From Gammaproteobacteria bacterium (lineage in GTDB: Bacteria; Pseudomonadota; Gammaproteobacteria; GRL18): a stretch of 64,000 nt of DNA. A program made the position numbers and the translations under genes. The notes beneath the pieces are model-generated. The model ran no database searches. It worked only from the letters and a program-made list of their open reading frames with translations, and was not told the origin of the DNA. Below are positions 22,822 to 48,757 of this stretch, piece after piece (position 1 is the stretch's first letter; every line of letters starts with the position of its first letter). The stretch is taken from the NCBI GenBank assembly GCA_027071355.1, contig JALSUJ010000461.1:1-64000 (forward strand). The letters run 5' to 3'.

Positions 22822-23759
22822 TTTTCTGTTGCCTGAAGAGCTTCTGCAAGATTATCTGTCTGACTACAAATTGAGATGAAATGGATGCCGGATTTTTTAC
22901 AACGTTGTTTTATGTTTTGCTGTCGCTCATTAAAACTAAACTGATAAGCTTTTTGTATTTTATGGCTGCCGGTATCGACTAGTGAATTACTTTCTAATCC
23001 ATGTTGTTCTCCCCAGCATAAATTTAAATGTCCAGCATTCGATAATTGGCGTTCGGCTGCATCATATATATGGATGGCAAGCACGCGGTGCTGTTGACCC
23101 AGTTCATAAAGTTGAGCCTGCATTTCATTATTTAAATCATAGAAATCACTGAGTAAATAAACATGGCTACCTTGTGGTATTTGTTTTGTGAGTAATGATA
23201 ATGCGCGTTTCAGACTAAATGTTGAATGGATATCTAGAGGAGGCGCAGCAAGACTTGCAAACTTCGCGAGTTGATAAATACCCTGCTGGCCATTTGTGGC
23301 TGTTTGCCACTTCGGTGTTTCGTTTAATATTAAAGCGCCCAGCTCCGTACCTGCCTGTGCTTCCCAGCTGGCCAGAAAAATCGATAACCGGGCTGCTTGT
23401 GTTACTTTTAAACGACTGCGTGTACCAAAGCGCATGCTTGCCCGACGATCAATTAAAAAATAACATTGAGGGGATAAGTCCTTATGAAACACACGTACCT
23501 GTGGTTTGCCGGTACGTGCGGTTGCACGCCAGTTAATGTGCCGCGGTTCATCACCAGGCTGGTAAGGCCGGGTTTCACTAAAGTCGATACCACTTCCTTG
23601 TTGAGTCGAGCTTAAATCACCACTTCCGCCCAGGCGTATTTCACGCATGCTTAATGGTAAGCCATCACCGTTCCACTGATGCCCATGTTGAATGCATTGA
23701 TTAATGGCCTGTGAATCGAGTAAGGGCTGTTGCAGGCGTTGCAGGTCTTTGCGGCGCAT
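22818..23759 (-). CDS. DUF58 domain protein
   Basis: The 313-residue cytoplasmic DUF58 protein is recognised by RLGGSGDLSSTQQGSGIDFS, YQPGDEPRHINWRATARTGK and PQVRVFHKDLSPQCYFLIDR, which precede a VWA-like fold (ASMRFGTRSR). It regularly accompanies MoxR and is thought to link the ATPase to the Bat membrane complex. It lies 20 bases after the MoxR stop. Confidence 0.9.
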   Translation of the reverse strand: MRRKDLQRLQQPLLDSQAINQCIQHGHQWNGDGLPLSMREIRLGGSGDLSSTQQGSGIDFSETRPYQPGDEPRHINWRATARTGKPQVRVFHKDLSPQCYFLIDRRASMRFGTRSRLKVTQAARLSIFLASWEAQAGTELGALILNETPKWQTATNGQQGIYQLAKFASLAAPPLDIHSTFSLKRALSLLTKQIPQGSHVYLLSDFYDLNNEMQAQLYELGQQHRVLAIHIYDAAERQLSNAGHLNLCWGEQHGLESNSLVDTGSHKIQKAYQFSFNERQQNIKQRCKKSGIHFISICSQTDNLAEALQATEK

Positions 23760-23779
23760 ATTACAGGCTCATGATAAAT

Positions 23780-24739
23780 TTAGGGTGCATCAACTTTTTC
23801 AAGTAGCTTTGTAATGATTTGTTTGCCATCAATGCCTTCAGCCTGAGCGGAGAAATCCAGCACTAAACGGTGCCGCAGTACGTCTACCGCCAAATCAATG
23901 ACATCTTCAGGAATCACGTAATCGCGATCTGCGAGCAGGGCGCGTGTACTCGCCGCACGTAATAATGAAATAGCACCACGGGGCGAAGAACCGGCTTTAA
24001 CCAGCCCGTCCCATTCGGGAATGTAGGTTTTAATATCACGGCTGGCCGCCACCAGTTCAATCACATATTTTTCGATTGAAGGCTCAACATGAATGCCATT
24101 GAGTTGTAATCGTAAGGAAAGAATATCCTCTGGCTTAGCAATGGATTTTAAGTTTGCGTCGAGTCTTCCATCATCAACTTTACGGGTACGCCTGAGTATT
24201 TCAATTTCTTCTTCATGGCTGGGGTATTGCATAATCAGGTGAAACAAAAAACGATCCAGCTGAGCTTCCGGCAAGCTATAGGTGCCCGCATTTTCCAGTG
24301 GGTTCTGAGTGGCCAACACCATAAATAAAGGCGGTAATATATGTGTTTCAGCCCCTACGGTAATTTGGTGTTCGGCCATTGCTTCAAGCAAGGCTGATTG
24401 TACCTTGGGTGGGGCACGGTTGATTTCATCGGCCAGTACAATTTCATGGAACAGGGGGCCGGGCTGAAAACGAAATGAGCCCTTATCCGGCTCAAATATT
24501 TCGCTGCCGGTGAGATCCCCCGGCATCAGGTCGGGGGTAAACTGAATGCGCTGAAAAGACGCATGTACACTACCGGCCAGTGCATGCACCGCGGTGGTTT
24601 TAGCCAGCCCGGGTGGCCCCTCCAGTAATACGTGGCCACCACTGACTAGTGCAATGATAAGTCTGTCTAACAAGTCTTCCTGTCCAACGATCACCTGTTG
24701 GAGTTGCTGTTTTAATTGTTCGCAGGAAAATGTACTCAT
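23780..24739 (-). CDS. moxR: MoxR-family AAA+ ATPase
   Basis: The 319-residue AAA+ protein has Walker A GPPGLAKTTAVHALA (about 40-54), Walker B VLADEINRAPPKVQSALLEA (about 100), sensor 1 ATQNPLENAGTYSLPEAQLD and a C-terminal winged/lid domain. MoxR ATPases act as chaperones for maturation of envelope or metal-cofactor complexes. It is the first gene of the leftward bat operon and starts about 90 bases after the cysteine desulfurase stop, so read-through from that operon is possible. Confidence 0.93.
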   Translation of the reverse strand: MSTFSCEQLKQQLQQVIVGQEDLLDRLIIALVSGGHVLLEGPPGLAKTTAVHALAGSVHASFQRIQFTPDLMPGDLTGSEIFEPDKGSFRFQPGPLFHEIVLADEINRAPPKVQSALLEAMAEHQITVGAETHILPPLFMVLATQNPLENAGTYSLPEAQLDRFLFHLIMQYPSHEEEIEILRRTRKVDDGRLDANLKSIAKPEDILSLRLQLNGIHVEPSIEKYVIELVAASRDIKTYIPEWDGLVKAGSSPRGAISLLRAASTRALLADRDYVIPEDVIDLAVDVLRHRLVLDFSAQAEGIDGKQIITKLLEKVDAP

Positions 24740-46783: not shown

Positions 46784-48757
46784 TTATTTCTTATTTTCAT
46801 CATCAAAACCCGATATGTTTACTAATACTTTATTTGGTGACGGAGGCTTTGCATCACCAAAAATAGCACTCACTGGCAGCAGCCAGCCTTTTATTCTAAC
46901 TTCGCGCTCCTTTCCCTGGATAAGGTATGTATGAATATTCAGGCCCTTCTTTGTTTTTCTGTGGAGTTTCGCTTTACTCATCATCTTTGTGAGTTTTCGC
47001 TGGAGCGCGGTTGCAGCAAATGTTTCTGCCTCTGATTTTTTATCATATTTTTCGTAATCAACAAGTCCAAAAGCTTTGACAAATTTCTTGAAGGTTAATG
47101 GCGATACAATCAAAGCGCCTTCTTTGACTATATGTACCAGAGCGTCTCTGCGATTCACAAATATTTTACCGTCTCGTATACCGGCCCTGACCCAATCCAA
47201 AAAGTGCTGCGCAATATCTGGATCTTCCATATCTAGTGATTTCTCCAGCCCAGCAGAAGATGATGATGGTGCGATATTTTCGTTTTCCTCATCCATGTAA
47301 AAATCTTTTACATGGCCAATATTTTCGTGGGGTTGGTCTTGAGTGGTGCGACTCGCACCACTGTCAGTTATATAATCAGCAGCTTTTTTTGAGGTGATGT
47401 GAGTCACATCACTTTCAGCATTCGAGGTGCTGGGAGTCCCAGCACTTTGAGAATGATGGTTCTGAGTGCTGCGACTCGCAGCACTTTCAATAGAATGATC
47501 TGAGGTGGTGTCAGTGACACCACTACGGGAATGATGATTTTGGGTGGTGGGACTCCCACCACTTTCAGTGTTTTGGGTGTTGCGAGTCGCAACACTTCGG
47601 GAACTTTCTGGTTTATCTGCCGATATAGACAGCTCTCCAGCAAAGGCTTCAGGTCTACGGCTGGGGTGGAAGAGGCGATTTGTCTCAAATTTCAAAACCG
47701 TCAGAGTAAGGCTATTATTTATTGTCAGGTGCCATATAGCCCGGTTATCCGGGGTGCTCTCAACAAATCCATGTTCCTGCCAAGTGTCAAAAAGGCGTGT
47801 ATTGTCACTGGGTATATCCGTTGCGCCAGTTCTCTGTAGGGCACTGCGCACAGCATCTGCCACAGTTCCACAGACTAGATAGGTGTAATGCTCATCACTC
47901 CAACCTGCACTGCCTTCGGGTCGATTAATGCGCAAGATATCCTCATCCAGTAATTGGCGCAGTGCAGTAGTGATTCGATCAACCAGCGGAATAGTTGGCG
48001 CATTGGGAAACCGTTGCTCTTGTCCGCCCAGTTTCAGGTTTCTTGCGACAGATTGGCCATCTGCCTGACGCACAATATCGCCTATTGCGCCACACTCATA
48101 TAGATCTCCTGCCAGCCAGGCCGTTAATTGAACCAGAATGTCAGGGTATTGAGCCAACCAGCCCCGACCTTTGTTCGGCAGGATGTGTATTAGCCCATTT
48201 GCTAATACCGTGTGAGCATTGTAGCGGCTTTTTTCAAAGACAACTCTATATGTATTTGCCCCAGTATCTAAAATGGGTGTGTCGTGAGGTGTCCAGATTC
48301 TACCTGTATCAAGCAGCAAGCGTGTATTTGAGATCAGTTTGCCTGCATCATGTAGCATTGCCCCAGAAAATATAGCATAGGTCCATATATGCTCCTGGGC
48401 TGATATAACCTCAGCCGGAGCTTGAAGTGGAAGGTTGTAGGATTTGCGGATCCGGAGTGATGTATCAATAACATCAAGGGTATGGATGATCAATCCGCCT
48501 GGGCCAGCGTGGTGATGAGCAGTTGAAGCGGGGACTAATTGAGCAGACTCAATAAATTGCTCAATGGCTGGACGATACAGGTGATCAAAATACTCTGCGC
48601 CAGAGGCTGTCAATTTCTCGATTGACTTGAGTTTTGGCCCAAGTCCTAATAGATCAACAATATCCCGAGACCTTAATACAGGAATATTGTTGTAATCCAG
48701 GTTGTTGAGATCGATATTCGGTAGTTTAGATAATGCTGGAGTTCTGTGCCAGAACAT
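46784..48757 (-). CDS. traI: MobH-family relaxase (TraI of PFGI-1-type ICE)
   Basis: The 657-residue relaxase has an N-terminal TraI_2/HD-type domain (about 40-330) with PASTAHHHAGPGGLIIHTLD and FSGAMLHDAGKLI, the His and HD residues of MobH enzymes. A variable linker covers about 380-480. A C-terminal DUF1528-like domain covers about 510-650 (AQHFLDWVRAGIRDGKIFVN; FKKFVKAFGLVDYEKYD). It nicks oriT and leads the strand to the coupling protein TraD. Its linker is built from seven short peptide repeats encoded by perfect DNA palindromes. It overlaps the upstream small gene by one base. Confidence 0.9.
   Translation of the reverse strand: MFWHRTPALSKLPNIDLNNLDYNNIPVLRSRDIVDLLGLGPKLKSIEKLTASGAEYFDHLYRPAIEQFIESAQLVPASTAHHHAGPGGLIIHTLDVIDTSLRIRKSYNLPLQAPAEVISAQEHIWTYAIFSGAMLHDAGKLISNTRLLLDTGRIWTPHDTPILDTGANTYRVVFEKSRYNAHTVLANGLIHILPNKGRGWLAQYPDILVQLTAWLAGDLYECGAIGDIVRQADGQSVARNLKLGGQEQRFPNAPTIPLVDRITTALRQLLDEDILRINRPEGSAGWSDEHYTYLVCGTVADAVRSALQRTGATDIPSDNTRLFDTWQEHGFVESTPDNRAIWHLTINNSLTLTVLKFETNRLFHPSRRPEAFAGELSISADKPESSRSVATRNTQNTESGGSPTTQNHHSRSGVTDTTSDHSIESAASRSTQNHHSQSAGTPSTSNAESDVTHITSKKAADYITDSGASRTTQDQPHENIGHVKDFYMDEENENIAPSSSSAGLEKSLDMEDPDIAQHFLDWVRAGIRDGKIFVNRRDALVHIVKEGALIVSPLTFKKFVKAFGLVDYEKYDKKSEAETFAATALQRKLTKMMSKAKLHRKTKKGLNIHTYLIQGKEREVRIKGWLLPVSAIFGDAKPPSPNKVLVNISGFDDENKK
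47342..47595 (-). repeat. array of seven variable perfect palindromes inside traI
   Basis: Seven inverted repeats with 9-10 base arms and a one-base centre lie at 47342-47362, 47394-47412, 47427-47445, 47465-47485, 47505-47523, 47544-47562 and 47577-47595. Left arms read GTGGTGCGA, GTGATGTGA, GTGCTGGGA, GTGCTGCGA, GTGGTGTCA, GTGGTGGGA and GTGTTGCGA; each is matched exactly by its own right arm. Centre spacings are 51, 33, 39, 39, 39 and 33. On the coding strand each unit reads AGT-GNT-GNN-A(G/C)T-NNC-ANC-AC, encoding S-x-x-S/T-x-x-T. Confidence 0.95.

Follow-up and report, generated by a model that had tools for sequence, protein, structure and literature searches.

A palindrome array in a MobH relaxase gene as a probable inverted duplicate of the oriV-type array of a PFGI-1-class ICE

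The MobH family relaxase gene of an ICE was found to carry, within its reading frame, an array of seven perfect palindromes which, judged from sequence, is a diverged and inverted duplicate, spacers included, of an array at the canonical oriV location of the same element. The relaxase array lies in the window (the whole stretch of DNA analysed, 64,000 nt); its counterpart lies outside, and was for that reason invisible to the first-pass annotation. We assign a probability of roughly 0.55 to the reading that an iteron-like oriV array, together with one AT-rich origin palindrome, was duplicated in inverted orientation into the linker of the relaxase gene, that its units are sites for a dimeric protein, and that template switching has helped to keep them palindromic. 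Coordinates are given in Table 1.

Table 1. Features of the relaxase gene and its palindromes (window positions)
Feature	Position	Strand	Remarks
MobH family relaxase gene	46784..48757	-	657 aa; TraI_2 and TraI_2_C domains; linker encoded by array
Seven-palindrome array	47342..47596	-	Diverged copy of the oriV array (contig C461:107778-107949)
AT-rich palindrome CCATGTAAAAATCTTTTACATGG	47293..47315	.	Second origin palindrome type, one copy; downstream in relaxase gene
Palindrome unit AGTGGTGCGACTCGCACCACT	47342..47362	.	
Palindrome unit GTGATGTGAGTCACATCAC	47394..47412	.	
Palindrome unit GTGCTGGGAGTCCCAGCAC	47427..47445	.	
Palindrome unit AGTGCTGCGACTCGCAGCACT	47465..47485	.	Core identical to one oriV unit
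Palindrome unit GTGGTGTCAGTGACACCAC	47505..47523	.	
Palindrome unit GTGGTGGGACTCCCACCAC	47544..47562	.	
Palindrome unit GTGTTGCGAGTCGCAACAC	47577..47595	.	

The relaxase ORF is intact, and the array encodes residues 388-472, between the TraI_2 (residues 46-340) and TraI_2_C (515-645) domains; a palindrome array inside a working gene is unusual. The 19-bp cores of the units begin at 47343, 47394, 47427, 47466, 47505, 47544 and 47577, which gives spacings of 51, 33, 39, 39, 39 and 33. All seven are perfect inverted repeats with C or G at the centre, and their arms vary only at positions 4, 7 and 8, where every change in one arm is matched in the other. The first-pass annotation had described the repeats, their spacings and their in-frame placement in exactly these terms, and had argued that they could not be due to chance. 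They are not: across the 4.17 Mb of the genome the loose frame GTGNTGNNANTNNCANCAC occurs at only 14 sites, of which 12 fall within two arrays, and a reversed control pattern occurs at none. A pattern of two units had no match in other genomes of the order (control also 0). The genome-wide palindrome search that the annotation had called for brought a second array to light, and the palindromes are not peculiar to the relaxase gene. The motif is that of the putative oriV repeats of the element, a point that the annotation had missed.

The only other array in the genome is on this contig too, at a distance of 60 kb, and comprises five units with spacings of 39, 36, 39 and 39. It is intergenic, between a STY4528 family gene (NF040582) and a PFL_4669 family gene (TIGR03761; Pfam AcaB); genes for ParA, ParB (TIGR03764), SSB, TopA and a ParB-HTH protein are close by. 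The relaxase side of the element has the TraD, PilL2 and TraC_PFL_4706 genes, and the two gene sets together identify it as a PFGI-1-class ICE, with the relaxase and the origin module towards its two ends. In PFGI-1 the putative oriV lies immediately upstream of PFL_4669 and contains two palindrome classes, one of which is AGTGTTGTGGGCCACACCACT (Mavrodi et al. 2009, PMC2647930). This published repeat has the same motif and frame as both arrays described here, and the relaxase units likewise form a tandem series of 19-21 bp inverted repeats of the form GTGNT...ANCAC. The canonical location (beside PFL_4669, between the STY4528 and DUF3158-type genes) is occupied by the five-unit array and not by the relaxase array, which, as it is located in the relaxase gene, is better regarded as a displaced copy than as the canonical oriV.

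Several comparisons point to duplication. The coding strand of the relaxase array and the plus strand of the oriV array are 75% identical over 177 bp. Spacers 3 and 4 show 17/20 and 15/20 identities, and the spacers alone, compared in register, score higher than all of 5000 shuffles; no match was found between the relaxase and oriV spacers in the opposite orientation. The AT-rich palindrome at 47293-47315 shows 87% identity over 39 bp with one of the three members of this second palindrome class in the STY4528 gene (C461, about 108.44-108.53 kb); as it is the one copy in the window and stands beside the relaxase array, both origin palindrome classes are represented there. Because the motif is the same, the spacers are shared and the putative parent array sits at the canonical oriV, we interpret the relaxase array as the duplicate. 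Copying probably ran from the origin to the relaxase gene, as relatives keep their arrays at oriV while other relaxase genes have none. Homologous units of the relaxase and oriV arrays differ as GTGGTGGGAGTCCCACCAC versus GTGCTGCGAGTCGCAGCAC and GTGCTGGGACTCCCAGCAC versus GTGTTGTGACTCACAACAC: changes in one arm are accompanied by changes in the other, many of them transversions, and all five pairs have a centre base in common.

The three AT-rich palindromes of the STY4528 gene (CCATGTAAAAAATATTTACATGG and variants, about 108440-108530) are in frame and are followed by an AT-rich inverted repeat, GTAGTAGT...ACTACTAC. Since comparable features occur at about this place in further ICEs (L052, L060, L064 and L066), origin elements appear to sit within the replication gene itself. 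Elsewhere on the contig, two 299-aa transposase-like ORFs whose first 45 residues are identical (81825-82724 and 89751-90650) bracket about 7 kb of ICE cargo. The same genome has two more MobH-type relaxase genes, both without palindromes (G000:C337:31571-33451 and G000:C193:6870-8075); contig C337 also carries a PFL_4669 gene of its own (23420-24058).

The motif is widespread at the origins of related elements. In pKLC102 (NC_019202), 57-bp repeats follow one another between STY4528 and PFL_4669, and every repeat contains a unit like GTGGTGCCACTGGCACCAC; the whole record gives 15 pattern matches, as many as its oriV. Scanning genome contigs for two adjacent units returned 14 loci (Pseudomonas, Halomonas, Kushneria, Billgrantia, Nevskia, Thiobacillus and others), most of which adjoin STY4528, PFL_4669 or the DUF3158-type gene after it, and other ICEs drawn by gene family yielded further versions of the motif, for example GTGATTCCACTGGAATCAC, GTGATTCCCGGGGAATCAC and GTGGCCACACTGTGGCCAC. 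In relatives most arrays lie between genes, and their spacings include 38, 40, 49, 50 and 58. No internal array was found in about 40 other MobH relaxase genes (L040-L044, L046, L047, pKLC102, two plasmids and L100-L129), and a search of viral contigs found no close relatives of the relaxase. The relaxase array is thus known from one element only, in one MAG. Palindromes were also observed at other positions. In genome G044, two of origin type follow closely on the relaxase stop codon, before traD (L108:3172-3292), and match the palindrome type at the oriV of that genome (L064:2268); in a P. putida record, palindromes GTGTTGCTACTAGCAACAC with the ICE-motif frame and a C/G centre lie between parA and parB (L037:2633-2743); and a palindrome CCCTTAAAGGGCCCTTTAAAGG recurs in several ICEs near the start of the DUF3158-type gene, at the place that encodes PFKGPFKGKG (L055:1400-1421, and also in L052, L054, L056, L064 and L066).

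These distributions bear on two further explanations. Selection on the peptide repeat S-x-x-S/T-x-x-T, with the DNA palindrome as a by-product, would account for units that are in frame in an intact ORF, but we reject it as extremely improbable: the parent array is noncoding, with a stop codon inside it in the corresponding frame, and relatives' arrays stand mostly between genes. Their relaxases have variable, unrelated linkers and no such peptide repeat, so that the refutation offered by the first-pass annotation (relatives that lose palindromy while keeping the peptide) has nothing to act on. Spacings in multiples of three seemed suggestive, since the noncoding parent array shows them too (36 and 39), but given the spacings of the relatives they are no rule outside the gene. 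Palindromic elements inserted in frame within genes are known from other bacteria, and the array could on that precedent be a dispersed mobile element of the REP, MITE or Rickettsia type (RPE). This too was rejected, as very improbable, because scattered copies are lacking: genome-wide, arrays of the motif occur only at the two ICE sites, and what was copied spans several units plus their spacers.

We assessed the symmetry of the motif on 204 units selected only on GTG, T5, A15 and CAC, so that all other arm pairs were free to vary; as the units are kin by descent, the counts are not independent. Watson-Crick matches were found at pair 4/16 in 194 units (70 expected under independence; all four pair types), at pair 6/14 in 200 (132 expected), at pair 7/13 in 194 (159 expected), at pair 8/12 in 188 (120 expected) and at pair 9/11, which flanks the single centre base, in 201 (106 expected; three pair types). 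Symmetry ends sharply at 19 bp: pair 0/20 is matched in 37 of 139 distinct 31-mers against 54 expected, which is no excess. At the centre, all but one of the 204 units (203) have C or G, the exception being a T, as do 138 of the 139 distinct ones. Variation is also seen within arrays, with at least two pair types at 4/16 in 12 arrays and at 9/11 in eight, and one-armed intermediates make up about 2-9% of distinct units per pair. The letters in arrays of this kind change, but the mirror symmetry is preserved.

Covariation of this kind might arise if stem-loops in the transferred strand or the mRNA were under selection as a priming or regulator site; each unit would then form a stem of 8 bp and a loop of 3 nt. 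Transfer of the element, and perhaps its replication, proceeds via single strands, and the segment folds far better than shuffled sequences (z = -9.9 as DNA, z = -8.7 as RNA); such folding does not discriminate, however, as any perfect palindrome must fold in this way. In a hairpin the loop takes about three bases and positions 9 and 11, unable to pair, should vary freely, yet they are among the best matched, so that covariation extends beyond the positions that a stem could pair. The restriction of the centre to C or G is strand-symmetric, and G.T mismatches on the sense strand are about as common as A.C mismatches (10 versus 8, P = 0.81), with no sign of the G.T excess expected on a functional strand. 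We therefore regard hairpins as distinctly unlikely; the evidence favours a symmetric double-stranded protein site of partition or initiator type over RNA or strand-specific DNA hairpins. Among the three causes suggested in the first-pass annotation, template switching and a protein that reads a family of sites both fit these data, and hairpins in RNA or single-stranded DNA are left unsupported.

A dimeric protein would account for the fixed 19-bp length and the outer bases, though not for the matching of arm positions that are free to vary. Template switching is known to homogenise the arms of inverted repeats and to invert their spacers (PMC8604942), as well as to yield compensatory changes (PMC8794818), and would explain both the matched arms and the C/G alternation, as inversion of a one-base spacer is a C/G flip. 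The two combined make the best model. Each 19-bp unit would be a dyad-symmetric double-stranded site bound by a homodimer that the ICE encodes for replication or partition; selection for symmetry, along with template-switch repair of one-armed mutations between the arms, would keep the arms identical, and the template switching would also flip the centre. The linker would tolerate the array because it is variable, presumably disordered, and need only keep its reading frame.

Template switching on its own might suffice if the array were a functionless relic of the origin, left in a tolerant linker. That the array occurs in this element only, that relatives' linkers are variable, that arm homogenisation can operate in coding DNA (PMC8604942) and that one-armed intermediates exist are all consistent with this, and we regard it as possible, if on the unlikely side. 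It accords less well with seven perfect units despite 15-25% divergence in the best-aligned spacers and more in the others, a divergence at which drift alone would be expected to break several of the seven. Two of the five oriV units have decayed arms and no relaxase unit does; moreover, the outer GTG/CAC, T5/A15, the C/G centre and the second, AT-rich palindrome type have all been kept.

Under the preferred reading of a duplicated array bound by a dimer, the candidate binders are the TIGR03764 ParB, the ParB-HTH protein, the STY4528 protein and the PFL_4669/AcaB-family protein. The ParB-like proteins may be considered the leading candidates: KorB, a ParB-family protein, binds TTTAGC(C/G)GCTAAA, which is likewise C/G-centred (PMC2680271), one pKLC102 unit has a parS-like half-site, and the motif occurs between parA and parB in P. 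putida. The ICE encodes ParA and two ParB-like proteins, the gene complement that a ParB/KorB-type site calls for. The STY4528 or PFL_4669 protein is a possible binder, and searches of solved structures with these two proteins found nothing. The relaxase copy would then most likely be an additional protein-loading site, origin or centromere-like, at the other end of the element. We consider unlikely a stronger version, in which the coding sequence of the relaxase gene itself contains a working second origin or centromere and in which, throughout the repeat family, the double-stranded DNA machine needs dyad symmetry as such and no fixed sequence; if true, a transfer gene and a replication or partition site travel and evolve as one.

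Several points weigh against our proposal. A dimer of relaxed specificity does not by itself need matching arms, so that an extra assumption of template switching or dyad selection is required; the oriV of this class of ICE is postulated; the relaxase array is confined to one element, so that its function draws no support from conservation; and pKLC102 and most relatives manage without a second array. The relaxase array may be either a working second site or a relic kept perfect by template switching. PFGI-1/pKLC102-class ICEs are widespread, and in the studies considered here their origin is only postulated. Matched variation over about two dozen arrays now defines its sites as dyads of 19 bp centred on C/G and makes hairpins improbable, so that the binding protein can be sought directly. 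The copy in the relaxase gene amounts to a natural experiment, in which a noncoding origin array, now in a gene and in frame, is still perfectly palindromic, and in which selection on DNA sites can be separated from template-switch repair.

Compared with known systems, the putative oriV of PFGI-1 and pKLC102 shares with our element the 19-21 bp frame, the tandem arrangement, the two palindrome classes and the genes neighbouring the parent array. It differs in that here a second array lies in frame within relaxase coding sequence, with units that are more varied yet all perfect and are spaced at 33-51 rather than 46 or 57 bp. Canonical parS is TGTTTC-ACGT-GAAACA, and the pKLC102 unit TGTTTC-CAGTG-GAAACA has the same half-sites around a centre of five bases rather than four, and so is not a canonical 16-bp parS. 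The KorB operator has the C/G centre in common with our units; unlike parS and KorB sites, the arms here vary within an array, and binding of the units by a protein is putative. The parS sites of IncC/SGI1 are 22-bp inverted repeats at scattered positions in a MobH-type element, with four plasmid copies inside ORFs, but each copy stands alone, the core is fully conserved and there are no arrays with matched variation (PMC10954446). Perfect inverted repeats are also kept within translated genes in the mitochondria of Nematomorpha, where they reach 284 bp and lie in conserved protein regions, rather than stemming from a duplicated origin array (PMC6649704).
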